A program made the translations under genes and the position numbers. Positions 16,711 to 32,316 of a stretch of DNA of 34,693 bases are shown here, in pieces; positions within the stretch are counted from its first letter, which is position 1, and every line of letters begins with the position of its first letter. The DNA comes from a virus. Where the stretch lies: positions 1 through 34,693 of the IMG/VR virus record IMGVR_UViG_3300044568_004689. One strand, written 5' to 3'. The notes under the pieces were generated by a model that searched no databases, was not told the origin of the DNA, and saw nothing but the letters and a program-made list of their open reading frames with translations.

Positions 16711-19212
16711 ATGGCACTAAGTCCGCAATTATTAAATTTTAAAAGCTCAGGAGTTTATAGACTTGAGTTTGACAAATCTCAGACAGCAAATATAAATGTT
16801 GAGACTCTTAGATTAATGGTAGGTCACTCTAAAAAAGGTCCTTACAACACACCGGTTTTGATCGATTCAGTTGAAACTCTTACAAATGTGTTTGGAAACA
16901 TTGATAAAAGTTTAGAAAAAAAGGGAATGTTTTTCCACAGATCTTGTATCGAAGCTCTTTCAAGAGGTCCAATATTGGCCCTAAATCTTGAGCAGTTTAC
17001 TCAAGGAGATGTTGCATCTTACCAAAGTCCAGTAACATGTGGAGGTGCTGGAGCAATCGGTATTACTTCTGATAGTGGTACTTCAGGATATGCAACTTTC
17101 TTTGATAATGACAAATTTATGATTCCTTCAGATGCCCAAACATTAGCAACTATAGTTCCTGATGATGACCACATTCTAAACTTTGTGAATATTAAACAAG
17201 AACCAATTACAATTATTGTAAGACAGGCTCAAGACGTTAAAGAATTTGACCTAACTGCAAGAGAATGGTATGGTGTTGGAAACGTTCCAGAATACTTAAA
17301 TGATTTTGACAAATTGTCAGATTTTATGATTGATGTATTTGTATTCAAAGGAGAATTTGATTCTGTTGCAATGTCAAATGACCCAATCTATTCTGCCTAT
17401 TTTACAGAAGACGGTTTAGATAAAACAAAACTTGCACAATTTGCAAACCTTAGACAAGTTAGTTTAATTGCACAATATACAGGTTCTATCTTACCAGGAT
17501 TTAAAGACCTTGAAGGCCGAAACTTATATATTGAATCAATTGTTAACGCAGAGGCTAGAAGAACTGGTTTATTCTGTGCAGTTAATGAAGATGATGTTAT
17601 GGACGAGCAAGGAACTAAAGTTGATTTTGTAGGACATGTTCATGATAGTAACCAAAACTATGAATTACTATCTCATTATGTTCCGTCTGAAGCTAGAGAA
17701 ATCTCTGAAAACTTTGTAGGCGGTACTGTTGCTAACAATTCATCAAATTTCACAGTAACATATGATAATATTGTAGCAACAGTAACTAGTGCTAGTGCTA
17801 GTGGTACTGAAATAGAATATACTACAAGTACTCCACATGGAATCCAAAACGGGCAAACGGTAACTATTACTGGGTTAACTCCAAGCCTTTTTAACATAAC
17901 CGGAACTGCAACTAATGTAGCAACTAATAAATTTAAAATTGTTAACAATTTAACAGCACAAGACACAGTTCCAGGAAGTCCAACTGGAACTGCAACCGTT
18001 CTAATAAATGTACCTTCCCCTTTCCCAATTAAAGTTGGACACTATGTCGACTCGAATACAGAAGATAGACTTGCAAGAGTCAATAGAGTTGCAAAAGCAC
18101 CTATAAATATTGATGGAGAGACGATCTTTACAGTTTATACTGATATAGAACCTGCGTATGACGGTAGAATTATTAAATCATATGAAGAAGCTTCATTAGT
18201 TTACAAAACCTTTGTATTGCCAAAAGCAAATATAACTGGAAAAGAAATAAGCGACTATTTATCAGTTCTTTCTGGAGGTAATGGAATCTATGACGCCCTA
18301 ATCGACAAAGATATTATTGATTTTAGATATGTTGTAGATACTTTTACATCTTTTGATGAGAATGGCTTAAACAATAAGAGTAACCTTTCTCAATTAGCAA
18401 AAGACAGACAAAATGCTGCTGCAATATTAAATGCACCAACAATTGAAGATTTTAAAAAATCTGATGACCCATCTTTTACTGATGAGTTTGGAGGTTTTGA
18501 TACTGCTTATATCGCAGCAGGTGGTAATCAAGATAAAAACCCTACTAAAATATATGCCCTACCAAGTATTAATCAAGGTGCAAATTACGCATTCTACTAC
18601 GGACCTGGTTTAATCGTAAGCGACAATGGAAAAGACATTATTGTTCCTCCGGCTGCTTATGTATGTAACAACTACATCGACAAATACACGAACGCCCTTC
18701 CATGGTCAATCGTTGCTGGTCCAAGAAGAGGAGTTGTTGCGGGTACAAACGTTAAAGGGGTTGAATATTCTTTTGATAAAGGTGATAGAGATATTCTAGA
18801 GCCATTTGGAATCAATCCAATTGTATTCCAAAGAGGAACTGGTTTAACTATCTTAGGTAATAAAACTGCCCAACAATCTATTAAATCTGCACTTTCTTCT
18901 GCTCACGTAAGAGAGGTACTTATTTATATTCAAGACGGTATGGCTAATATTCTTAAAGATTACGTATTTGAATTTAATACTGCACAAACAAGACTTGAAA
19001 TCAAGACCCTTGCAGATTCATTCTTAGAAAGTGTTAAACAAGACAGTGGCGTTTATGAGTTTAAAAATGTAATGGATTCAACAAACAACACGAATGAGGT
19101 TATTGATAATAATATGGGTATAATTGATACCTATGTAGAACCAGTTAAAGGTTTAGAAATTGTAGTTCACAGAACAACTGTTTTAAATACTGGAGAAATT
19201 TCATCTAGCTAA
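16711..19212 (+). CDS. 18: Tail sheath protein, gp18-like
   Basis: An 833-residue contractile sheath subunit (T4 gp18 is 659). N-terminal SSGVYRLEFDKSQTANINVE and MVGHSKKGPYNTPVLIDSVE are the conserved start; the C-terminal domain has RGTGLTILGNKTAQQ, SALSSAHVREVLIYIQDG and FLESVKQDSGVYEFKNVMD. These strands and the C-terminal arm interlock with neighbouring subunits during contraction. Residues ~355-432 form an extra beta module (IEYTTSTPHGIQNGQTVTIT type) like the FCCH-like modules seen in other phage structural proteins, so the added length is a domain insertion probably displayed on the tail surface. The tube gene follows. Confidence 0.93.
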   Translation: MALSPQLLNFKSSGVYRLEFDKSQTANINVETLRLMVGHSKKGPYNTPVLIDSVETLTNVFGNIDKSLEKKGMFFHRSCIEALSRGPILALNLEQFTQGDVASYQSPVTCGGAGAIGITSDSGTSGYATFFDNDKFMIPSDAQTLATIVPDDDHILNFVNIKQEPITIIVRQAQDVKEFDLTAREWYGVGNVPEYLNDFDKLSDFMIDVFVFKGEFDSVAMSNDPIYSAYFTEDGLDKTKLAQFANLRQVSLIAQYTGSILPGFKDLEGRNLYIESIVNAEARRTGLFCAVNEDDVMDEQGTKVDFVGHVHDSNQNYELLSHYVPSEAREISENFVGGTVANNSSNFTVTYDNIVATVTSASASGTEIEYTTSTPHGIQNGQTVTITGLTPSLFNITGTATNVATNKFKIVNNLTAQDTVPGSPTGTATVLINVPSPFPIKVGHYVDSNTEDRLARVNRVAKAPINIDGETIFTVYTDIEPAYDGRIIKSYEEASLVYKTFVLPKANITGKEISDYLSVLSGGNGIYDALIDKDIIDFRYVVDTFTSFDENGLNNKSNLSQLAKDRQNAAAILNAPTIEDFKKSDDPSFTDEFGGFDTAYIAAGGNQDKNPTKIYALPSINQGANYAFYYGPGLIVSDNGKDIIVPPAAYVCNNYIDKYTNALPWSIVAGPRRGVVAGTNVKGVEYSFDKGDRDILEPFGINPIVFQRGTGLTILGNKTAQQSIKSALSSAHVREVLIYIQDGMANILKDYVFEFNTAQTRLEIKTLADSFLESVKQDSGVYEFKNVMDSTNNTNEVIDNNMGIIDTYVEPVKGLEIVVHRTTVLNTGEISSS

Positions 19213-19252: not shown

Positions 19253-19807
19253 ATGGGATTACCACACTATTCACAAGACCAAACCTCTAAAAAAGGTAGA
19301 AATTTTGAACCAATCCAGCCTAACCTGTTTGAAGTTACAGTACTTCCACCTGCTGGTGTTGCAGATGCTCCACTACTTTTACAGCACGTTAATTCAATCT
19401 CAGGATTAGAATTATATAAAGAAATTGCTGCTGTAGAACAAAAATACAAATGGGTTACTAGATCTTTTGCTGGTATGCCTGATGGAACTGCAGTTGATGT
19501 AACTATTAACTTCTCATTAAACTTAAATGAAGCAAATCAAGCTTATTTATACAAGTCAATGAGACAATGGTATAACTTAAGATACGATCCAAACACAGGT
19601 ACAATGGGTCTTAAAAAAGATTACGTAGGTACTATTGTTATCGTACAGTTCAACAGAGCTGGAGATATTTATAGAACTGTAACTTTAGAAGACTGTCAAA
19701 TTTCTGGAGCTTTAGGTTTCACTAATGAATTAAGTTACGAAACTAAAGATCCTGCTGCGTTAGAAGTAACATGGAGATGTGATGCTTGGAAAGAAGTTCT
19801 AGCATAA
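19253..19807 (+). CDS. 19: Tail tube protein, gp19-like
   Basis: A 184-residue protein of the T4 gp19 family (163 residues), which polymerises on the baseplate as hexameric rings. Typical features: RPNLFEV-like PNLFEVTVLPPAG near the start, SISGLELYKEI, the loop AVEQKYKWVTRSFAGMPDG, and a closing LEVTWRCDAWKEV, all usual for gp19/Hcp-type tube folds. The N-terminus is about 15 residues longer than T4. A strong terminator lies 14 bases after the stop, ending the sheath-tube unit. Confidence 0.93.
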   Translation: MGLPHYSQDQTSKKGRNFEPIQPNLFEVTVLPPAGVADAPLLLQHVNSISGLELYKEIAAVEQKYKWVTRSFAGMPDGTAVDVTINFSLNLNEANQAYLYKSMRQWYNLRYDPNTGTMGLKKDYVGTIVIVQFNRAGDIYRTVTLEDCQISGALGFTNELSYETKDPAALEVTWRCDAWKEVLA

Positions 19808-20113: not shown

Positions 20114-21100
20114 ATGAGCACAAAACCAAAAAACGATTTAAACTTAGATGAACAGTATAAAAATATGGTTCAATCTGTAGAAACACAGGAAGTTTATGAA
20201 CCAGAAGTTCAACAGCAAACCGTTCAAGAAACACCCTTAAACCTAGGAAAGGTTAATATGGAAAGATTTACCGGAGAGAGAGCGGAAGATGCTGATTTCC
20301 ATTTAGGTTATCATTTAATCCCATTACTTTCTCTTCCTTCGGGAGGCATGTTTTATCCAGAAGGAACACAGCTTTCAATACGTTCTGCTAAAGTTGCAGA
20401 GGTTAGACAATTTTCAACAATAGATGAATCTAACGTTTTAGATATTGATGATAAATTAAACGAAATAGTAGATTCTTGTACAAGAATTATATGTACATCA
20501 AAGCGATTATCATATAAAGACCTTTTAGAAGAGGACCGTTTTTACGTTATTTTGTCTATTAGAGACTTGACCTTTCCAGAGCCAGAATCAAATTTAAAAA
20601 TTGACCATACATCTAAAAAAGGAGAAAAACACGATATTGAAATTAAAAAAGAATATTTTCAATACTTTAAAATTCCTACCGAACTTGATAAATATTATGA
20701 TAGTGATAGAAAATCTTTTATGATTGAAACCCGTTCATTTGGTACTATTGAAATGATTCCACCAGCGATTGGAGTTATGCAAAAAATTACTTCGTATATT
20801 AAAGAAAAACAGCAAAAAAATGTTAAAATTGATCAATCTGTTCTTCAAATTATTCCATATTTGCATAGAGATTGGAGAAATTTTAATGATAAAACAATCT
20901 TTGAATTCGAAATGGATTTAAACGGATGGTCTAATAAAAAATACAATCTGGTGTATACATTGGCTGAAAAGATGAAAGTAGGAATTCAACCAAATATGCT
21001 AGTACAATTAGGGGACGAGGAGGAAGAGGTTCCTATTAGTTTTCGTGACGGGATCAAATCTCTTTTCATTGTTCAAGATATCGCTGGAGAACTTCTTTAA
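20114..21100 (+). CDS. 26: gp26-like baseplate/tail-assembly protein
   Basis: A 328-residue protein placed between tail tube and tape measure. After a Gln/Glu-rich N-terminus (~1-60) come LLSLPSGGMFYPEGTQLSIR, AEVRQFSTIDESN, LNEIVDSCTRIIC and LLEEDRFYVILSIRDLTFPE, resembling the T4 baseplate (gp26) family pattern of LPS-G-x-Y, an acidic helix, a Cys and a closing I-R. In many tailed phages the gene at this place is a tail-assembly chaperone made in two forms by ribosomal frameshifting. The stop codon is embedded in CTT CTT TAA, an RF2-like +1 slip site, and the +1 frame continues for 72 codons. T4 makes gp26 and gp51 separately from adjacent genes. Confidence 0.68.
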   Translation: MSTKPKNDLNLDEQYKNMVQSVETQEVYEPEVQQQTVQETPLNLGKVNMERFTGERAEDADFHLGYHLIPLLSLPSGGMFYPEGTQLSIRSAKVAEVRQFSTIDESNVLDIDDKLNEIVDSCTRIICTSKRLSYKDLLEEDRFYVILSIRDLTFPEPESNLKIDHTSKKGEKHDIEIKKEYFQYFKIPTELDKYYDSDRKSFMIETRSFGTIEMIPPAIGVMQKITSYIKEKQQKNVKIDQSVLQIIPYLHRDWRNFNDKTIFEFEMDLNGWSNKKYNLVYTLAEKMKVGIQPNMLVQLGDEEEEVPISFRDGIKSLFIVQDIAGELL

Positions 21101-21101
21101 G
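21086..21101 (+). promoter_or_regulatory. Probable +1 programmed frameshift site
   Basis: At the end of the gp26-like gene the sequence is GGA GAA CTT CTT TAA G. A tRNA-Leu on CTT (21095-21097) can slip to TTT, skipping one base, so AAG (21099) is read instead of the TAA stop. This copies the bacterial RF2 (prfB) signal CTT TGA, including a GGAG stimulator-like element five bases upstream. Product: 400-residue gp26-extension fusion. Confidence 0.6.
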
Positions 21102-21317
21102 ACAAAGTTTCACATATATCTTAAACTTCATATGCAACCATCAGAGCTTGAGGGTATGGAATACTATGAATTTCACTACCTTGTTAAAGACCTGATAGAG
21201 TATATTAAAGAGGAGAATAAACAAAACCAAGGTCAAAATGATGCAACATCTGGAGCAATGGGTAATATGAAAATGCCTAATATGAAAATGCCATCATTTA
21301 ATATGCCAAAAATGTAA
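21099..21317 (+). CDS. Frameshift extension, tail-assembly chaperone (gp51-like position)
   Basis: The +1 frame after the gp26-like stop encodes 72 residues: KTKFHIYLKLHMQPSELEGM, YYEFHYLVKDLIEYIKEEN and a Met-rich tail. The pattern of an aromatic/His segment, then P-S-E-L-E-x-M and an acidic helix is typical of the T part of G/T chaperone pairs in other tailed phages. The only good in-frame ATG (21132) would start after the conserved LH, and it lacks the A-rich leader seen elsewhere, which favours frameshifting over separate initiation. The tail contains NMKMP twice. Followed by a strong terminator. Confidence 0.6.
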   Translation, partial: KTKFHIYLKLHMQPSELEGMEYYEFHYLVKDLIEYIKEENKQNQGQNDATSGAMGNMKMPNMKMPSFNMPKM

Positions 21318-21320
21318 AAT

Positions 21321-21348
21321 AAAAGAGGTCCTATAGGACCTCTTTTTT
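21321..21348 (+). terminator. Rho-independent terminator
   Basis: AAAAGAGGTCC and GGACCTCTTTT form an 11-bp stem around a TATA loop and run into a T tract. It separates the chaperone gene from the tape-measure unit. Confidence 0.92.
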
Positions 21349-21380
21349 GTGTTAATTGAATTCGTTTTATAAAAAAACGA

Positions 21381-21391
21381 TATATATAATA
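21381..21391 (+). promoter_or_regulatory. Late-type promoter for tape-measure unit
   Basis: TATATATAATA directly downstream of the terminator, about 17 bases before the ATG at 21408. Confidence 0.6.
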
Positions 21392-21407
21392 AATTAAAGA
21401 ACCAACA

Positions 21408-21863
21408 ATGATGAAAACTTTTGAAGAATTTAGTAACGATTTAAAAAATTCACAAGCAATTAATGAATTTGTCGATCCAATAACAATCGCTATTGCAGCA
21501 GTTACCGTAGGCATGGTTATTGCAGAGCCTATCATTGCAGCATATAGAGAGAGAAAAATGTTAAAAATGTCTTTAACAGAATTAATTGATTTAAAATCTG
21601 AAATAGAATTTAAAATTAATAAAGAGCAGAATAGGTCTTTTGTAGATGATTATAAAATAGAATCACTAGAAGAGGAATTAAAATCAATCAAGTTCAGAAT
21701 CGACCAATTAGATAATAATATTCTAAAAGTAGAAAACGTTATTAAAAAGAGTGATGCCAAAACTCCAAAAATATTAAAAGATTTGAAATCAAATTATAGC
21801 GGTAACGATTTAGATTCAATTTTAAAAAATGCAAAAAAAGATTCAATCGAGTTAATCGATTAA
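21408..21863 (+). CDS. Membrane/coiled-coil protein with capsid-targeting-like start
   Basis: A 151-residue protein. The N-terminus begins MMKTFEEFSNDL and contains AINE at residues 17-20, matching the capsid-targeting-like pattern (T4: MKTYQEFIAE). Next is one strongly hydrophobic segment (~24-46, IAIAAVTVGMVIAEPIIAAY) and then a long coiled coil (~50-115). It is the first gene of the tape-measure unit, 19 bases upstream of the tape measure. The combination suggests a virion protein that contacts membrane, perhaps ejected with DNA or associated with the tape measure. No family recognised. Confidence 0.6.
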   Translation: MMKTFEEFSNDLKNSQAINEFVDPITIAIAAVTVGMVIAEPIIAAYRERKMLKMSLTELIDLKSEIEFKINKEQNRSFVDDYKIESLEEELKSIKFRIDQLDNNILKVENVIKKSDAKTPKILKDLKSNYSGNDLDSILKNAKKDSIELID

Positions 21864-21882
21864 TCTAAACAAAAATTAATTA

Positions 21883-24800
21883 ATGTCATCTATCCACCCA
21901 AAAGCGTACGAAGTATCAGTATTATCGTTAAATGCGTTGCAAAAAATTGAAAAAATTGCAGCGGAATCAATGACTCAAATGCAGACTGTTATTTTAAGTG
22001 TTGATAAATCAAATGTAATTTCAAATAGTATTAAAAACGTGCTGATTAAGCAAAATAAAATACTTGAAAAAATTCATGAAGGTATTGTTATTGGAAATAA
22101 GAAAAAAGAGGTTAAGTCCATTAATATAATAGACAATAATACACCTATCCACCTAAAAGCGTATGAAGTATCAATATTATCTTTAAATGCGCTTCAAAAA
22201 ATAGCAACAGACTTGAATGCAGGAATGCAATCATTTGCCGGCATACAAAACGTTATTTTAAGCGTTGATAAATCAAATATGATTTCAACCGGCATTAAGA
22301 ATGCGCTTCAAAAAATAGCAACAGACTTGAGTGCAGGAATGCAAAGCGTCATTTTAAGTGTTGATAAATCAAACATGATTTCAACCGACATTAAGGATGC
22401 GTTGAACAAAATAGCAACAGACTTGAATGCAGGCATGCAATCATTTGCCAGCATGCAAAGCGTTATTTTAAGTGTTGATAAATCAAACATGATTTCAACC
22501 AGTATTAAAAATACACTGCTCAATCAATATAAAATACTTGAAAAAATTCATGAAGGTATTGCAGTTGGAAATAAGAAAAAAGAGGCTAAGCCTATTAACG
22601 AGATAGACAATAATACACCTATCCACTTAAAAGCATATGAAGTATCAATATTATCTTTAAACACATTAAATAAAATAGCAACAGACTTAAGTGCAAGCAT
22701 TCAATCATTTGCCGGTATACAAAGCGTTATTTTAAGCGTTGATAAATCAAATGTGATTTCAACCAACATCAAAAATGCGTTGAACAAAATAGCAACAGAC
22801 TTGAGTGCAGGTATGCAAAGCGTTATTTTAAGCGTTGATAAATCAAATGTGATTTCAACCAACATCAAAAATGCGTTGAACAAAATAGCAACAGACTTGA
22901 GTGCAGGAATGCAATCATTTGTCGGTATACAAAGCGTTATTTTAAGCGTTGATAAATCAAACATGATTTCAACCAACATCAAAAATGCGTTAAATAAAAT
23001 AGCAACAGACTTGAGTGCAGGTATTCAATCATTTGCCGGCATACAAAGCGTTATTTTAAGCGTTGATAAATCAAACATGATTTCAACCGGTATTAAGGAT
23101 GCGATATTCAATCAATATAAAATACTTGAAAAAATTCATGAAGGTATTACGGTTGGAAATAAGAAAAAAGAGGTTAAGTCCATTAAGGCTATAGACAATA
23201 ATACACCTATCCACCTAAAAGCGTATGAAGTATCAATATTATCTTTAAACACATTAAATAAAATAGCAACAGACTTAAGTGCAGATATGCAAAGCGTTAT
23301 TTTAAGTGTTGATAAATCAAACATGATTTCAACTAGTATTAAGCATGCATTAAATAAAATAGCAACAGGCTTGAGCGCGGGTATGCAATCATTTGCCAGC
23401 ATGCAAAGCGTTATTTTAAGTGTTGATAAATCAAACATGATTTCAACCGGTATTAAGGATGTGCTGCTTAATCAATATAGAATACTTGAAGAAATTCATG
23501 AAGGTATTGCGGTTGGAAATAAGAAAAAAGAGGTTAAACATATAGAAGCTATAGACAACAATACACCTATCCACTTAAAAGCATATGAAGTATCAATATT
23601 ATCTTTAAACACATTAAATAAAATAGCAACAGACTTGAGTGCGGGTATTCAATCATTTGCCAACATGCAAAGCGTCATTTTAAGTGTTGATAAATCAAAC
23701 ATGATTTCAACCGGTATTAAGGATGCGATATTCAATCAATATAAAATACTTGAAAAAATTCATGAAGGTATTGTTATTGGAAATAAGAAAAAAGAGGTTA
23801 AGTCCATTAAGGCTATAGACAATAATACACCTATCCACCTAAAAGCGTATGAAGTATTAATATTATCGTTAAATGCATTGAATAAAATAGCAACAGACTT
23901 GAGCGCAGGTATTCAATCATTTGCCGGAATACAAAGTGTTATTTTAAGCGTTGATAAATCAAATATGATTTCAACCAGTATTAAGGATGTGCTGCTTAAT
24001 CAAAATAAAATACTTGAAGAAATTCGCGAGAGTATTGCGGTTGGAAATAAGAAAAAAGAGGCTAAAGTCTATGGAATAGGCAATATGAGCTTAGAAAAAA
24101 TAAAAAATGCAGCAGGCCTTGTAGGTCTATTAGGATTTTCTATTTTAACTCTTTCTATTGCATATAAAATGGCTGGTACAATTTCGCCATCAGATATTGG
24201 TAAGGGACTACTTGTAACGTTATCTTTAGTACCAATACTTAAAGTATTTGGAGAACTTATACAGGCAAAAGGCAAACTATTTGGAGACACTATGGGTGTT
24301 TTTAGATTTATGAAATCAGCGACTATGATGGTTGCAACTATTGTTACTCTTGGGTACATGCTATCAAAACTTCCTGCTGTTAATGGAGGAGTTTTATTAA
24401 CTGCGGTTGCATTAGCAGGGGTATATTATATAATTGGAACGGTTTATGTTAAATTAATTGAAGCATTTAGATTTGGTGGAATAATTAGTTTTCTTGTTAA
24501 TAGAAAAACAGGTGCCGAAGCTCAACATGCCCTTATTCAAACTGCATTTACGCTTGTTGTAATTGCGGGAGCTATGCGTTTAGCCCCTACACTAAATCCA
24601 AGTCAAGCAGCATCATTTGTTATTGCTGCATTTACTCTGGTTCCATTAGCGATTGCATTGGTTGGTTTAAGAATGACAGCAGGTTTTATTAAAGATGTGG
24701 AGTATAAAGACTTACTTAAAATGGGAGTTGCTATTACAGCGCTTGGATTAGCATTAGTTCCTATTGCATTTGCTGCAAAACTAGTTGATAAAGTAGGAAT

Positions 24801-27800
24801 TACGCCAGATCAATTAACAAATCTTCTTAATTTAACAACTGCTCTAGCACCATTAATTGCAATGGTTGGTTTAATAACTGCAGTAATTTCATTTGTAACG
24901 GAAAATAATGTATCAACTAGAGATAAAAATGTAGGATCAACATTATTACAAAGAGATAATTCTAGAAAAAGGAATCAATCGATGACTTTAAAATCAATTG
25001 GAATTTTTGCAATAAGAACAGTGGTTGTTGTAGGCGCATTAATGCTAGCAGCAGTTGCATTCAGAGCTGGTGCAGGTATAATTCAAGCAGGTGCTGTAGC
25101 TGCTAGAAAAATTGATATGATAGGCGTTTTAAAGATGGGGCTAACTCTTTCTATTTTTACATTAATTGTTGGAGGATTTGTTAATATTTTAAGAGGTAGA
25201 GGAGGTACTAGCGAAACATCCTCAACGAGTGCAGGAAAAGGAGGTTTCTTAGGTGATAAATCGTCATCTACATCACAAGGTGAAATTAAAAAGAATGATT
25301 TAATAGCCGCCGCATTTGCAATACCAATAATAGCGCTTGGAATTGTTGCAGCGGCATGGATATTTAAAATGCTTCCATCTGAACAAAAAGCCCCTGATGC
25401 TTTATGGACGTTAAAGGCCGGGTTTGCATTATTAGCATTTTCACTTCCGTTTTATATTATAGCCAAATCAATTCGTGGAATGAGCAAACAGGACTTAATT
25501 GCAATGGGCCTTGCAATCCCTATACTTTCAATAGGGATATTATCAACTGCTTGGATTTGGCAATTATTACCAGAAGTTTTTAAATCACCTCCATTACAAT
25601 GGAGCATCAATGCTGGAATTGCAATTAGTCTTTTTGCAATTGGATTCTATTTTGTTGCAAAGGCTATTAAAGGTGCAAAGACTAAAGATCTTATTTTTAG
25701 TGCTCTTTCAATTTCAATAATTGCAATAAGCATTGTTTTAATATCTTTTATTTTTCAAGGACTTCCGGATGTTTATAAATCACCTCCATTAAAATGGGTT
25801 TTTGAATCATCGTTTGCCATTGGAGTTTTTGGAATTGGATTTTATTTTGTTGCAAAGGCAATTAAAGGAATGAACACTAAAGAGATGTTACTTTCTGTAT
25901 TTGCAATTCCAATTTTAGCAACTGGAATTCTTGCAACCGCATGGATTTTTCAAGGACTTCCAGATGTTTTTAAATCGGCTCCATTAAAATGGATTCTTAA
26001 AGCAGGACTTGCAATTGGAGTTTTTGGAATTGCAAGCTATTATATTATAAAAGCAATTAAAGGAATGAGCACTAAAGAGATGCTACTTATGGCATTTGCA
26101 ATTCCAATTTTAGCAGCTGGAATTCTTGCCACTGCCTGGATTTTTCAAGGACTTCCAGATGTTTTTAAATCACCAGACCCGATATGGGTTCTTAAAGCAG
26201 GTTTTGCTATGTTAATTTTTGCAATTCCTTTTTATTTTGTTGCAAAGGCAATTAAAGGAATGAGTACTAAAGAGATGTTACTTTCTGCATTTGCAATTCC
26301 AATTTTAGCAACTGGAATTCTTGCAACCGCATGGATTTTTCAAGGACTTCCAGATGTTTATAAATCACCAGACCTGATATGGGTTTTTAAAGCAGGACTT
26401 GCAATTGGAGTTTTTGGAATTGCAAGCTATTTTATCATGAAGGCAATTAAAGGAATGAGTACTAAAGAGATATTACTTATGGCATTTGCAATTCCAATAA
26501 TTGCGCTTGGAGTACTCGCAACTGCATGGATTTTTCAAGGACTTCCAGATGTTTATAAATCACCAGAATCAACATGGCTTCTTAAATCCGCACTTGCTAT
26601 TGTCCTATTTGGAGCTATGATATATCTTTCAAGTAAAACTATTGGAAAACTAGGTATGGTTGATATGCTTAAATCCTTATTAGGTGTAGTTATAACATCA
26701 TTTGCCATACTAGCAGTAGCATGGTTATTTTCAATGTTACCTGGTTTATTTGTTGCCCCGCCTTTAGGTTGGACTTTAGCTATCGGAGTTGCACTTGGTG
26801 CATTTGCCCTGGTCATCACAGCAGTTGGTTTAGCAGTATCGGCATTAACTCCTGCAACACTTCTTTTAGGAGCATTAGGTATTATAGTAATTGCAATAAC
26901 AATCGTAGCAGTTGGTTGGATTCTTTCGCTATTAGAACCTGCGATGCCTGCACTTAAATCAGTTGCCAATGGATTTGTTGATATTGTAATGTCTCCTATT
27001 CATGGAATTATTGATGCATTTGCCAGATTTAAAAATGAGATTGGAGTTGAAAACTTAATCCCTCTTGCTGTCGGCGTAGCCGCCCTAGGAGGAGCATGGT
27101 TAATATTTTCAGCCGCAGTAGCTGGAGGATCTGTTGCCGGATTACTTGGTTCGGCTGCCGGAGCAGTTGGAGCAATTTTTGATGGAATTAGCAAACTGTT
27201 TAACGGTAAAACTCCATCACCTCTTGATATATTACAGGGGTTGGCTTCCCTTGCTCCAGAGATTAAAAATCTTGCAGTACCATTAAAAAATGTTGGAATT
27301 GGGTTTGCACAGATTAATTCAACATCGGGAGGAGTATCTAAAGCTTTTAAATCGGTCATTGACTTTTCTAAAATCGATAATAATAAGTTCGCGTCAAACG
27401 CAAAATCATTAAGAAGTATCGCCGGTTCATACACTGGCATTGCTAACGCAAGTAAAATAATGAATATAAAAGCGATTGAATCAACAACAAACATGTTTAA
27501 GGCTCTTACTGATTTAGCAAAAAATAAAGGAGAATCTGCAATGTCAGTCCTAGCTGATAAATTGCTTAAAGCTGTTAAAGAACTTACAGGAGCTGCTAAA
27601 AATCTTGAAGATAGCGTTAAAACACAGGGAAGTAACACAGATGCTTCAGCAGATTTAATTTCTAAATCACTTGTAGGTGTTAAAGAAACTGTTACCGGAG
27701 TTAAAAAAGATGTAAGTAAAATGACTGCCGATGCAAAAGGAGTCTTAGACATTCAGCCATTGATTGATGCAATAATATCATTAGAAGATCGTTTTGATGA

Positions 27801-27831
27801 TTTTATTACTGTTAAAATCAAAACAGATTAA
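21883..27831 (+). CDS. Giant tape-measure protein with nested repeats
   Basis: A 1982-residue protein in the tape-measure slot after tube and chaperone genes. Residues ~4-728 are six supermodules of coiled-coil-type repeats. Residues ~735-1130 hold several hydrophobic segments and linkers. Residues 1133-1652 are eight copies of a 65-residue module, each with two hydrophobic helices (AFAIPILATGILATAWIFQG and a second). The C-terminus (~1700-1982) has more hydrophobic helices, then a soluble helical region. T4 gp29 is only 590 residues. At about 1.5 A per residue it would specify a tail near 300 nm if all residues measure, which is inference. Hydrophobic segments in tape measures are commonly used to cross the host membrane during ejection. 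Confidence 0.78.
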   Translation: MSSIHPKAYEVSVLSLNALQKIEKIAAESMTQMQTVILSVDKSNVISNSIKNVLIKQNKILEKIHEGIVIGNKKKEVKSINIIDNNTPIHLKAYEVSILSLNALQKIATDLNAGMQSFAGIQNVILSVDKSNMISTGIKNALQKIATDLSAGMQSVILSVDKSNMISTDIKDALNKIATDLNAGMQSFASMQSVILSVDKSNMISTSIKNTLLNQYKILEKIHEGIAVGNKKKEAKPINEIDNNTPIHLKAYEVSILSLNTLNKIATDLSASIQSFAGIQSVILSVDKSNVISTNIKNALNKIATDLSAGMQSVILSVDKSNVISTNIKNALNKIATDLSAGMQSFVGIQSVILSVDKSNMISTNIKNALNKIATDLSAGIQSFAGIQSVILSVDKSNMISTGIKDAIFNQYKILEKIHEGITVGNKKKEVKSIKAIDNNTPIHLKAYEVSILSLNTLNKIATDLSADMQSVILSVDKSNMISTSIKHALNKIATGLSAGMQSFASMQSVILSVDKSNMISTGIKDVLLNQYRILEEIHEGIAVGNKKKEVKHIEAIDNNTPIHLKAYEVSILSLNTLNKIATDLSAGIQSFANMQSVILSVDKSNMISTGIKDAIFNQYKILEKIHEGIVIGNKKKEVKSIKAIDNNTPIHLKAYEVLILSLNALNKIATDLSAGIQSFAGIQSVILSVDKSNMISTSIKDVLLNQNKILEEIRESIAVGNKKKEAKVYGIGNMSLEKIKNAAGLVGLLGFSILTLSIAYKMAGTISPSDIGKGLLVTLSLVPILKVFGELIQAKGKLFGDTMGVFRFMKSATMMVATIVTLGYMLSKLPAVNGGVLLTAVALAGVYYIIGTVYVKLIEAFRFGGIISFLVNRKTGAEAQHALIQTAFTLVVIAGAMRLAPTLNPSQAASFVIAAFTLVPLAIALVGLRMTAGFIKDVEYKDLLKMGVAITALGLALVPIAFAAKLVDKVGITPDQLTNLLNLTTALAPLIAMVGLITAVISFVTENNVSTRDKNVGSTLLQRDNSRKRNQSMTLKSIGIFAIRTVVVVGALMLAAVAFRAGAGIIQAGAVAARKIDMIGVLKMGLTLSIFTLIVGGFVNILRGRGGTSETSSTSAGKGGFLGDKSSSTSQGEIKKNDLIAAAFAIPIIALGIVAAAWIFKMLPSEQKAPDALWTLKAGFALLAFSLPFYIIAKSIRGMSKQDLIAMGLAIPILSIGILSTAWIWQLLPEVFKSPPLQWSINAGIAISLFAIGFYFVAKAIKGAKTKDLIFSALSISIIAISIVLISFIFQGLPDVYKSPPLKWVFESSFAIGVFGIGFYFVAKAIKGMNTKEMLLSVFAIPILATGILATAWIFQGLPDVFKSAPLKWILKAGLAIGVFGIASYYIIKAIKGMSTKEMLLMAFAIPILAAGILATAWIFQGLPDVFKSPDPIWVLKAGFAMLIFAIPFYFVAKAIKGMSTKEMLLSAFAIPILATGILATAWIFQGLPDVYKSPDLIWVFKAGLAIGVFGIASYFIMKAIKGMSTKEILLMAFAIPIIALGVLATAWIFQGLPDVYKSPESTWLLKSALAIVLFGAMIYLSSKTIGKLGMVDMLKSLLGVVITSFAILAVAWLFSMLPGLFVAPPLGWTLAIGVALGAFALVITAVGLAVSALTPATLLLGALGIIVIAITIVAVGWILSLLEPAMPALKSVANGFVDIVMSPIHGIIDAFARFKNEIGVENLIPLAVGVAALGGAWLIFSAAVAGGSVAGLLGSAAGAVGAIFDGISKLFNGKTPSPLDILQGLASLAPEIKNLAVPLKNVGIGFAQINSTSGGVSKAFKSVIDFSKIDNNKFASNAKSLRSIAGSYTGIANASKIMNIKAIESTTNMFKALTDLAKNKGESAMSVLADKLLKAVKELTGAAKNLEDSVKTQGSNTDASADLISKSLVGVKETVTGVKKDVSKMTADAKGVLDIQPLIDAIISLEDRFDDFITVKIKTD
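21892..24066 (+). repeat. Nested tandem repeats in tape-measure N-terminus
   Basis: Six supermodules start at 21892, 22147, 22621, 23209, 23569 and 23833. Each begins IHxKAYEVSxLSLN and ends ILEKIHEGIxxGNKKKE; the first five are followed by IDNNTP. Inside are 1, 3, 4, 2, 1 and 1 submodules of NKIATDLSAGMQ(SFAGIQ)SVILSVDKSNMISTSIK type, with or without the six-residue SFAGIQ part, i.e. 38 or 32 residues (114 or 96 bases). Supermodule lengths of 88, 120, 158 and 196 residues equal 88 plus sums of 32 and 38, so whole units were gained or lost. DNA identity between units is high, indicating recent expansion or gene conversion. Confidence 0.95.
25279..26838 (+). repeat. Eight 195-base membrane-helix repeats in tape measure
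   Basis: Units start at 25279, 25474, 25669, 25864, 26059, 26254, 26449 and 26644, exactly 195 bases (65 residues) apart. The consensus is KGMSTKEMLLxAFAIPILA, then TGILATAWIFQGLPDVYKSP, then xIWVxKAGLAIGVFGIxSY and a KAI end. Central copies are nearly identical; the first and last are diverged. Each unit gives two hydrophobic helices joined by the loop LPDVYKSP. Confidence 0.95.
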
Positions 27832-30446: not shown

Positions 30447-30480
30447 ACATAAAACTTTAACAAAAATAATTAACCTGACA

Positions 30481-30515
30481 TTTTACCGTGTCAGGTTTTT
30501 TGTTTATATTTACAT
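30481..30515 (+). promoter_or_regulatory. Early-type promoter, copy C
   Basis: TTTTACCGTGTC (30481) with TATATTTACAT 24 bases later (30505-30515), followed by the shared transcript start region ATCTAATTAAAAC. Confidence 0.75.
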
Positions 30516-30531
30516 ATCTAATTAAAACACC

Positions 30532-30669
30532 ATGGAAAAGAAAAAACTTACAAAGATAAACTTCACATTAGAAGAATGGTTTGACGCCTTAAAGGTGCCG
30601 ACTCCTCATCGTAATAAAAAGAAGTATTTTAAGAAGGAGAAGCACAAGGGTAAATCTGAGGATTGTTAA
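30532..30669 (+). CDS. Small basic protein, 45 residues
   Basis: ATG at 30532 right after promoter C and TAA at 30667-30669. The protein starts MEKKKLTKINFTLEEWFDAL and continues with a Lys-rich tail (RNKKKYFKKEKHKGKSED). The position directly behind an early promoter and the short leader support it. Unknown function; strongly basic, so perhaps nucleic acid binding. Confidence 0.55.
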   Translation: MEKKKLTKINFTLEEWFDALKVPTPHRNKKKYFKKEKHKGKSEDC

Positions 30670-30670
30670 T

Positions 30671-30692
30671 AACTTTAACAAAACTTTAACAC
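30671..30692 (+). repeat. Tandem CTTTAACA element upstream of promoter D
   Basis: Two direct copies of ACTTTAACA (AACTTTAACA, AAACTTTAAC, AC) lie just upstream of promoter D. The same 22 bases occur upstream of promoter E at 31307-31328, and one copy precedes promoter C near 30453. A regulator site is possible. Confidence 0.5.
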
Positions 30693-30698
30693 TATAAA

Positions 30699-30733
30699 GT
30701 TTCCCGTGTTGAAACAATTGATTATATTTACAT
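30699..30733 (+). promoter_or_regulatory. Early-type promoter, copy D
   Basis: GTTTCCCGTGTT (30699) with TATATTTACAT at 30723-30733, again 24 bases apart, followed by ATCTAATTAAAAC as in copies C and E. Confidence 0.7.
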
Positions 30734-30754
30734 ATCTAATTAAAACAATGTATT

Positions 30755-30880
30755 ATGATTATAGCAACCGAACTAGCTGAAAAATTAATAGCAACAGGAA
30801 AACTTCTTTTTGGAGACTATTTTATTAACTTAGAAGGTGAATATTACATCACTCGTAAAAAACTTAATCAAATTAAATAA
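30755..30880 (+). CDS. Small unknown protein, 41 residues
   Basis: ATG at 30755, TAA at 30878-30880. The sequence MIIATELAEKLIATGKLLFG then DYFINLEGEYYITRKKLNQIK suggests a helix followed by a beta hairpin. First gene behind promoter D; the next ATG is two bases after its stop. An ATG at 30748 gives only a 10-residue frame and is not used. Confidence 0.5.
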   Translation: MIIATELAEKLIATGKLLFGDYFINLEGEYYITRKKLNQIK

Positions 30881-30882
30881 GT

Positions 30883-31044
30883 ATGACAATATATACAGTA
30901 ATCCCTTTCTATTACGACGGAGTAGAAATATTCGAAAACGATATTAAAAGCTTTGATGATTATGATGAAGCATTCTATTATGCATGCAATGAGATCGATC
31001 AAAGAAGATTTACTATAATTGAAAATAAGTTACATTATAAATAA
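30883..31044 (+). CDS. Small acidic protein, 53 residues
   Basis: MTIYTVIPFYYDGVEIFEND followed by DDYDEAFYYACNEIDQRRFT. A small alpha/beta protein rich in Tyr and Asp/Glu. It starts two bases after the previous stop, so translation is probably coupled. Unknown function; a host-interacting early protein is possible because of promoter context. Confidence 0.5.
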   Translation: MTIYTVIPFYYDGVEIFENDIKSFDDYDEAFYYACNEIDQRRFTIIENKLHYK

Positions 31045-31058
31045 AAATAATAAATGTC

Positions 31059-31157
31059 ATGAGTCCAAAAACAAAAGAGAATCTCAAGTTTGCCGCATTT
31101 TGGCTATATGTCGCTATAGCAACAGCATTAGTCACATACTTTTCACCCACGATGTAA
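31059..31157 (+). CDS. Single-pass membrane micro-protein, 32 residues
   Basis: MSPKTKENLKFAAFWLYVAI continues ATALVTYFSPTM: a charged N-terminal segment and one hydrophobic helix of about 18 residues. ATG at 31059; an ATG at 31054 stops after one codon. The next ATG is two bases after the stop. Confidence 0.45.
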   Translation: MSPKTKENLKFAAFWLYVAIATALVTYFSPTM

Positions 31158-31158
31158 T

Positions 31159-31305
31159 ATGAAGAAGTCTATTTCTTCAACAAGATACATATACCACATC
31201 TTGCTAGCCATATTATGCATTAAACTGAACGGAACTCCTAAACCTCATGGAGCAGCCAGAGCATTGGACAAGAAATACAAGGCTAGCACTTCCGCAATAT
31301 GTTAA
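31159..31305 (+). CDS. Small basic, partly hydrophobic protein, 48 residues
   Basis: MKKSISSTRYIYHILLAILC followed by IKLNGTPKPHGAARALDKKY. The first half has a Lys-Lys start and a short hydrophobic stretch, like a weak signal or membrane anchor; the second half is basic. It ends in Cys. A new promoter (E) follows. Confidence 0.45.
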   Translation: MKKSISSTRYIYHILLAILCIKLNGTPKPHGAARALDKKYKASTSAIC

Positions 31306-31306
31306 T

Positions 31307-31328
31307 AACTTTAACAAAACTTTAACAC
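31307..31328 (+). repeat. Tandem CTTTAACA element upstream of promoter E
   Basis: Identical to the element at 30671-30692: two direct ACTTTAACA copies placed just before a TATATTTACA promoter, directly after a stop codon. Confidence 0.5.
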
Positions 31329-31334
31329 TCCAGA

Positions 31335-31369
31335 TTTTCAGAATTCAAATGTTTTAATTATATTTACAT
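31335..31369 (+). promoter_or_regulatory. Early-type promoter, copy E
   Basis: TTTTCAGAATTC (31335) with TATATTTACAT at 31359-31369, 24 bases apart, followed by ATCTAATTAAAAC. It lacks the CCGTGTC box of copies A-D, so that box is not required for the family. Confidence 0.65.
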
Positions 31370-31390
31370 ATCTAATTAAAACAAATACAC

Positions 31391-31552
31391 ATGACAACAT
31401 TTAAGTTTAATACATTATCAGAAGCAATAGGTCAATTAAGACATTTAGGTTGTAATGATTTTGAATTTACCAATTCAAAGACCCAAATCACAGTAACCGG
31501 CATTAATGGCAAAAAGAAGATTGCTAAAGCTATAATTAAAAATAAGTTATGA
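31391..31552 (+). CDS. Small unknown protein, 53 residues
   Basis: MTTFKFNTLSEAIGQLRHLG, then NDFEFTNSKTQITVTGINGK and a Lys-rich end: a small alpha/beta fold pattern with a basic C-terminus. First gene behind promoter E. Its stop overlaps the next start (ATGA), a typical coupling. Confidence 0.55.
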   Translation: MTTFKFNTLSEAIGQLRHLGCNDFEFTNSKTQITVTGINGKKKIAKAIIKNKL

Positions 31553-31737
31553 AAATAGTTAAAAGAAATTTTGCAAATCTAGCAGGTTCTATGGCTATAT
31601 GGCTAATACCAACAATGAGTTATTTAATACAAAAGACCGGAGGGGTCGAATACCATAGAGAATGGATATGGTGGGTTGGTATACCTACATTAATTTTAGG
31701 ATGGTTATTGTTAAACTTTAAAATAAAGAAAATATGA
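31549..31737 (+). CDS. Two-helix membrane protein, 62 residues
   Basis: Two hydrophobic segments, NLAGSMAIWLIPTMSYLIQ (about 10-28) and WWVGIPTLILGWLLLNFKI (about 41-59), with basic ends, so an inner-membrane hairpin is predicted. It overlaps both neighbours by ATGA-type junctions. Function unknown; early membrane proteins of phages are often exclusion or host-modifying factors. Confidence 0.6.
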   Translation: MKIVKRNFANLAGSMAIWLIPTMSYLIQKTGGVEYHREWIWWVGIPTLILGWLLLNFKIKKI

Positions 31738-31892
31738 AAGTAATTTACATGGAACACACATTAAATCTAATGGCTGCCGGAGGTTTAGAAATCCTAGCAG
31801 CAGTTAAAGAAATTGTAGCATCTGGAACAATAAAACAGACAGAAGTTGGAACTTATTTAGTAATTGAAACAAAATCAGAAGAACAAATATAA
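31734..31892 (+). CDS. Small soluble protein, 52 residues
   Basis: MKVIYMEHTLNLMAAGGLEI, then LAAVKEIVASGTIKQTEVGT and an acidic end. Helix-strand pattern, no motif. It overlaps the upstream stop by ATGA and is followed by a membrane protein after five bases. Confidence 0.5.
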   Translation: MKVIYMEHTLNLMAAGGLEILAAVKEIVASGTIKQTEVGTYLVIETKSEEQI

Positions 31893-31897
31893 TTATT

Positions 31898-32116
31898 ATG
31901 GAAAAATTAACTACAGGAATCGGATTAATCTTTGCTGGGATAGCACTGTTAGTCGTGGCTGCAATCCTTTTTGCATGGCCAGTACAATTATTATGGAATG
32001 GATGTTTAATTAGTGCAGTTGATGGAGTTCACCCAATAACATTTTGGCAGGCTCTTGGATTGAATTTCTTATTTTCAATCTTATTCAAAGGTACTTCAAC
32101 CTCAAGCAAAAAATAA
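31898..32116 (+). CDS. Small membrane protein with FWQAL motif
   Basis: A 72-residue protein with one long hydrophobic segment (~8-35) containing FAWPVQLLWNGC, then ITFWQALGLNFLFSILFK. This pattern of WPVQxLWN and TFWQALGL occurs in small phage and bacterial membrane proteins as far as I recall, with no known function. One base separates it from the next start. Confidence 0.6.
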   Translation: MEKLTTGIGLIFAGIALLVVAAILFAWPVQLLWNGCLISAVDGVHPITFWQALGLNFLFSILFKGTSTSSKK

Positions 32117-32117
32117 A

Positions 32118-32315
32118 ATGATACACGATATTATTTTATACCTCTTTGTTGGTGTATCTTATTCATTTGGGATATACCAATTAAGAGAAATGTTAAATAA
32201 TAGCAATCCAATTGGAATGCATTTAAAACCATACACCAATGTTGAGCTTACATTATTGGCCCTATTTTGGCCATTCTTTCTAATAGTGTTTATTATTTCA
32301 TTTTTTAAATCTTAA
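32118..32315 (+). CDS. Two-helix membrane protein, 65 residues
   Basis: Hydrophobic segments at ~4-22 (DIILYLFVGVSYSFGIYQL) and ~44-62 (LTLLALFWPFFLIVFIISFF) with a polar loop between. It starts one base after the preceding stop and ends one base before the glycosylase start. Unknown function. Confidence 0.6.
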   Translation: MIHDIILYLFVGVSYSFGIYQLREMLNNSNPIGMHLKPYTNVELTLLALFWPFFLIVFIISFFKS

Positions 32316-32316
32316 C

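Follow-up and report, generated by a model that had tools for sequence, protein, structure and literature searches.

What does a nested array of repeats do at the N-terminus of a very long phage protein, and how did it arise there? The array lies in a viral record of 34.7 kb (34,693 nucleotides, called the window here), whose ends are linear and whose G+C content is 33%. The window encodes a portal, a prohead protease, a gp23-type major capsid protein, a clamp loader, a head-closure protein, a T4-type terminase, a tail sheath and a tail tube, and by this gene set it is a fragment of a T4-like phage. In a comparison of sheath proteins, the nearest named records were LR756500 (a 462-kb uncultured huge phage), Flavobacterium phage MaF61, Tenacibaculum phages and the Prevotella Lak phages, and judging from sequence the host is likely a member of the Bacteroidota. 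A scan of bacterial genomes with the sheath gave no link to any host, and a search of a phage collection by DNA similarity gave no match to the window. Two observations concern other parts of the window. A 42-bp tandem repeat (14-aa units, e.g. YSEHIAEKADQGIQ) lies at 2877-2991, in the C-terminal part of the ORF for the prohead protease, and this ORF may carry a fused scaffold region. Positions 30447-32316 (~1.9 kb) hold only small ORFs of at most 72 aa, several with transmembrane (TM)-like stretches; this region has no match in Rfam, and the region corresponding to it is rearranged in the relative L031.

The protein that carries the array (21883..27831, + strand; 1982 aa) probably serves as tape measure protein (TMP) in a T4-like huge phage. 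The initial annotation had called it a tape measure, and that assignment has good support from gene order, from a frameshifted chaperone-like pair upstream and from the lack of a rival long hydrophobic protein in a 234-kb relative. The gene follows those for the tail sheath (16711..19212, +; phrog_34521, E=1.4e-123; Pfam PF17482), the tail tube (19253..19807, +; phrog_45, E=1.8e-6) and the chaperone-like pair, an order that is kept in relatives. The homologue in that relative has 19 TM-like segments, against 0 or 1 in its other ORFs of at least 560 aa; the one exception is a collagen-like repeat read in antisense. Those of the other long ORFs that were tested there are assigned to wedge or fibre families or to unknowns, or are not hydrophobic. 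A 1225-aa protein of the same relative was considered as an alternative TMP and set aside, as it has no TM-like segments, a structural or wedge-like look and a PHROG of unknown function. Long collagen-like GFQGAQG repeats occur in probable tail fibre genes of L109 and L110 (234-kb relative, ~32-42 kb).

Similarity searches gave nothing that could be used to identify this protein as a tape measure; TMPs diverge fast, and homology to an annotated one would support the assignment without being needed for it. Neither Pfam nor PHROGs gave a tape-measure match for the 1982-aa window protein, and a profile comparison with T4 gp29 found no detectable similarity. Among 25 relatives, two have weak matches to phrog_1686 and one to phrog_9959; we treat the phrog_1686 match as weak because the same search also matches in 7 of 14 control genomes. 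Pfam matches to an arginine decarboxylase domain, an arenavirus nucleocapsid and DUF2534 were rejected as spurious repeat matches, as no single stretch passes by itself. Tested as one of the longest genes, the candidate has 1982 aa and 30 TM-like segments, with a helical content that comes from low-confidence models. It could instead be some other long hydrophobic virion or membrane protein, as known TMPs have no homology to it and some 30 TM-like segments are unusual for a TMP, but we consider this quite improbable, given that in all relatives it occupies the canonical slot after sheath, tube and chaperone-like pair and that the 234-kb relative offers no alternative TMP. Apart from its repeats, the protein has a non-repeated hydrophobic middle (24070..25389, +), confined to the window, L019 and L074/L006, and a C-terminal part that can be aligned across all relatives (26950..27828, +).

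The pair upstream consists of a putative tail assembly chaperone, assigned by position (short form, 328 aa; 20114..21100, +; phrog_36717, function unknown), and a +1-frame extension of 72 codons (21099..21317, +). The extension lies within ORF 21045-21317, which has a weak match to phrog_634, baseplate hub assembly catalyst (E=1.1e-4). A candidate +1 frameshift site, CTTCTTTAAG, sits at the chaperone stop codon (21092..21101, +), and in 34 of the 34 distinct sequences compared the stop codon lies inside CTTCTTTAA, followed by A or G. The site, CUU UAA, resembles that of the release-factor-2 gene (prfB). Past the stop, pN/pS is 0.24 in the +1 frame over 17 codons, as against 3.27 and 0.91 in the other two frames, and the +1 frame is therefore under purifying selection; synonymous variation just upstream of the slip site is low (pS 0.13). 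Among the sequences compared, no start codon is conserved in the interval from the stop to the conserved residues; independent initiation of the +1 product is nevertheless possible, since that frame commonly has alternative starts upstream (GTG at codon -18, TTG at codon -10). With an overlapping out-of-frame extension, a conserved slip site and selection on both frames, the 328-aa gene and its extension are a candidate frameshifted tail assembly chaperone pair. The lambda chaperones gpG and gpGT are a frameshifted pair in the same slot, just upstream of the TMP, but the lambda shift is -1 whereas the site in the window implies +1.

The nested array occupies 21892-24069, at the N-terminus of the TMP. 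An SVDKSN core recurs 12 times in the ORF and the motif HL/PKAYEV six times (at aa 4, 89, 247, 443, 563 and 651), and these positions bear out the counts first proposed, namely six supermodules with 1, 3, 4, 2, 1 and 1 submodules. In order, the supermodules measure 85, 158, 196, 120, 88 and 79 aa, and from one submodule start to the next the distance is 38 or 32 aa within a supermodule and 88 aa where a linker intervenes. All lie on the + strand. Supermodule 1 (21892..22146) has one divergent 35-aa submodule and is the nearest to the single unit of the relatives; supermodule 2 (22147..22620) has submodules of 38, 32 and 38 aa plus a linker; supermodule 3 (22621..23208) has 38, 32, 38 and 38 aa plus a linker; supermodule 4 (23209..23568) has 32 and 38 aa plus a linker; and supermodule 5 (23569..23832) has one 38-aa submodule plus a linker. 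Supermodule 6 (23833..24069) also has one 38-aa submodule, but most of its linker is missing, cut short where the array joins the non-repeated part. The length series of 88, 120, 158 and 196 aa given in the initial annotation thus fits supermodules 2-5, whereas the first is 85 aa and the last is truncated at 79 aa. Likewise, long and short submodules do differ by six residues, but not by exactly SFAGIQ as had been stated: the insert follows SF[AV][GSN][IM]Q, with the variants SFAGIQ, SFASMQ, SFVGIQ and SFANMQ, and only four of the eight long forms carry SFAGIQ itself. Tandem Repeats Finder (TRF) arrays at 21988-23712 (score 1745) and 23348-24066 (score 1133) score far above chance.

The array is soluble in character, with a mean hydropathy of 0.06 and no TM-like segment, unlike the rest of the protein, and aromatic residues make up 2.7% of it. 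The 11- or 18-residue Trp/Phe periodicity of known TMP repeats is absent from the array, whose units are 32, 38 and 88 residues. An AlphaFold model of one supermodule pair shows, at low confidence, helices of 26-39 residues with breaks near DKSN. This model and one for an entire TMP of the family are all-helical, with pLDDT values of 52 and 37 that are too low for fold searches. From these weak models we infer that the array blocks may be helical in an extended state.

Among submodules 2-12, DNA identity is 82-97%, and submodule 1 is 72-79% identical to all the others. Pooled dS among submodules 2-12 is 0.47, compared with 0.02-0.16 between the window and L019, so most of the duplication predates that split, with some turnover of units since. 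The recent unequal exchange that had been proposed from the high identity therefore holds for the turnover after the split, but not for most of the duplications, which are older. The dN/dS ratio is 0.14 among submodules and 0.34 among linkers, and the array is therefore translated and constrained. Every contig here is a metagenome assembly and the repeats share 82-97% of their DNA sequence, which raises the question of whether repeat number reflects short-read assembly rather than biology. We consider this extremely improbable: the longest exact repeat in the array is 92 bp, a length that ordinary assemblies can resolve, the reading frame is unbroken, the constraint among copies points the same way, and L019, an independent contig, has a similar but non-identical array in which copies carry their own substitutions. 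Nor is the single unit of L074 a collapsed array, because it differs from every copy in the window.

Close relatives differ in the array by whole units. The flanks of L019 are 97.1% (upstream) and 98.6% (downstream) identical in DNA to those of the window, and L019 has seven submodules in four supermodules (1, 2, 3 and 1), with module lengths of 85, 38, 88, 32, 38, 88 and 66 aa in the same phase. Its TMP is 278 aa shorter than that of the window; as the contig ends inside the gene, the full length of 1704 aa is extrapolated. L074/L006 are 90-95% identical to the window across most of the flanking DNA and have exactly one unit in a TMP of 1019 aa; the front half of that unit is nearest to the window's first copy and the back half to the last. 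The proposed comparison of repeat number among close relatives, made here on metagenome contigs, thus gives 12 submodules in the window, 7 in L019 and 1 in L074, and since the second array described below also steps by units, the claim that whole units are gained and lost is supported by near-identical phages. When the array, the middle region and the 151-aa gene upstream were used to search for further array-bearing relatives, L019 and L006/L074 were the only ones recovered; for the most part, the window's group is represented by single metagenome contigs. The other TMPs of the family (~40 relatives) begin at a GTG and have a single N-terminal segment, which in a profile-profile comparison aligns with the window unit over 58 columns (33% identity, probability 78%), and the 1801-aa homologue in LR756500 has a similar single segment at its N-terminus. 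Because L074, the family TMPs and the LR756500 homologue all have one N-terminal segment, the single-unit state is most likely ancestral, and the array would be an expansion in the lineage of the window.

The second array (25390..26949, +; TRF 25750-26602) comprises eight hydrophobic units of 64-66 aa in the window, by unit counts. Relatives have 4, 5, 6 or 10 homologous units and differ by whole units of ~65-67 aa. Most full-length relatives on the sheath tree have a TMP of 889-905 aa, those with one hydrophobic unit fewer have 830-837 aa, one more gives 962 aa, and ten units go with 1217 aa. Compared with L064, L031 has one clean 68-aa insertion in the TMP and L063 one 67-aa deletion, with the genes otherwise colinear and the three TMP genes at 82-90% DNA identity. 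On the sheath tree, the group formed by the window, L019, L029 and L031 contains most of the extended TMPs, and lengths in the window's group range from 962 to 1982 aa.

A third kind of change is seen in L029, which is 93-97% identical to the window over most of both flanks. In place of window positions 21348-25613 it has an unrelated, shorter segment, and similarity returns inside the hydrophobic units. The replaced stretch includes a 151-aa gene (21408-21863), which lies between the chaperone and the TMP, is restricted to the window, L019 and L006/L074, and always stands alongside the window-type N-terminal half of the TMP. Judged from these alignments, L029 is a recent mosaic tape measure in which the N-terminal half and the preceding 151-aa gene have been swapped; in a study of phage protein mosaicism, no recent mosaic tape measure could be confirmed (PMC10684548).

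The explanation that best fits these data, to which we give a probability of roughly 0.72, is that the protein is the TMP of a T4-like huge phage, that its N-terminal segment has been amplified to a nested array, and that the blocks of the array probably lengthen the tail. An ancestral N-terminal segment of ~80 residues would have become the nested array by in-frame unequal recombination, giving presumably helical blocks of 32 or 38 aa grouped with a ~50-aa linker. Purifying selection would maintain the copies while recombination between them adds or removes whole blocks, and the second array, with its hydrophobic 65-67-aa units, would behave in the same block-wise manner. Each block would then lengthen the extended TMP, and hence the tail tube, by ~0.15 nm per residue, a gain of 5-6 nm per submodule and of ~13 nm per 88-aa block, so that repeat number probably sets tail length stepwise. 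Deletions and duplications in the TMP alter tail length proportionally in TP901-1 (PMC5099701), where 347 aa go with 53 nm, and in TM4 (PMC1796659), where 114 aa go with 20 nm. At ~0.15 nm per residue, the slope published for these two phages and for phage G (2893 aa, 450 nm), and counting the hydrophobic units as if they were extended in the tail, the TMPs considered here extrapolate to tails of roughly 130-300 nm. Taken one by one, the predictions are ~120-140 nm for the usual 896-aa TMP, 170-190 nm for L029, 240-265 nm for L019 with its extrapolated 1704 aa and, for the window itself, 280-310 nm.

The array could also be a duplicated terminal binding module with little effect on tail length, whose partners would be the chaperone, neck or terminator proteins. 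Its unit matches the extreme N-terminal segment that is single in ~40 relatives and in the LR756500 homologue, and as a copy of that segment it could repeat the segment's own function. The soluble character of the array would suit such a module, and in TP901-1 ~127 end residues do not count toward tail length (PMC5099701). The inner submodules, however, multiply without their linker, which fits a spacing role better than duplication of a whole domain, and TP901-1 deletions outside the repeats also shorten the tail (PMC5099701), so any extended residue would be expected to count. We therefore think it unlikely that the array is only a binding module. A more elaborate idea, in which the array is a ruler with several stop marks, takes up the same observation: because the N-terminal segment recurs whole in each supermodule, and this segment may be the signal for growth to stop, one phage might make several discrete tail lengths, with recombination shifting the set. 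We regard this as highly improbable.

Neutral turnover of repeats bears on why the array exists rather than on what it does, since the array could be a by-product of recombination that serves no adaptation, regardless of how it affects tail length. T4-like phages recombine intensively, and the expansion is confined to the phage group of the window while most relatives keep their TMP at the usual length. The purifying selection on the copies and their unbroken frame speak against turnover free of all constraint, but they are compatible with a neutral copy number, and an array without adaptive role is possible, if doubtful. The reading that we prefer remains amplification of the N-terminal segment into blocks that probably lengthen the tail.

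Several features of this locus have known counterparts. TMP repeats, whole-block gain and loss, and proportional tail length are already published (PMC3271669, PMC5099701, PMC1796659). The siphophage TMPs of TP901-1 and p2, like the TMP in the window, contain repeated blocks, and in those phages deletions shorten the tail proportionally (PMC5099701); Belcaid et al. (2011) described gain and loss of TMP units in natural relatives that differ by whole blocks, such as Bacillus prophages differing by whole 44-aa blocks (PMC3271669). In these published repeat TMPs, however, the unit length is a multiple of 11 or 18 aa and Trp/Phe residues occur at intervals, whereas the window has units of 32 and 38 aa in 88-aa groups with few aromatics, and its array differs further from those of the siphophages in deriving from the N-terminal segment, in belonging to a contractile T4-like phage and in being accompanied by an independent array of 65-67-aa hydrophobic units. 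Phage G, a huge myophage, has a sheath, a frameshifted chaperone pair and then a very long TMP, gp183, of 2893 aa for a 450-nm tail (PMC8570332); the part of that account covered here describes no nested repeat array in gp183 (PMC8570332). T4 itself shares homologues of gp23, the gp20-like portal and the gp17-type terminase with the window, and its gp29 fills the same functional slot, but gp29 has 590 aa and no detectable similarity to the window TMP, and T4 genes 26 and 51, unlike the pair in the window, are separate and on opposite strands.

Three things are new here: the nested 32/38/88-aa pattern made from an N-terminal segment, the presence of two independent stepped arrays within one TMP of T4-like phages and, as read from these contigs, a natural TMP length series together with TMP exchange in phages sharing ~90-98% identity across much of the tail module. 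Laboratory cuts and duplications of tape measures change tail length, but a natural series within near-identical phages has rarely been documented. Here, TMPs of 962, 1019, 1217, ~1704 and 1982 aa occur among phages with more than ~90% identity in a large part of that module, and their differences in length arise from two separate unit arrays and an exchange of the N-terminal half. Cultured members of this group would allow a direct test of tape length against the length of a contractile tail, and of what use long tails are to these phages.
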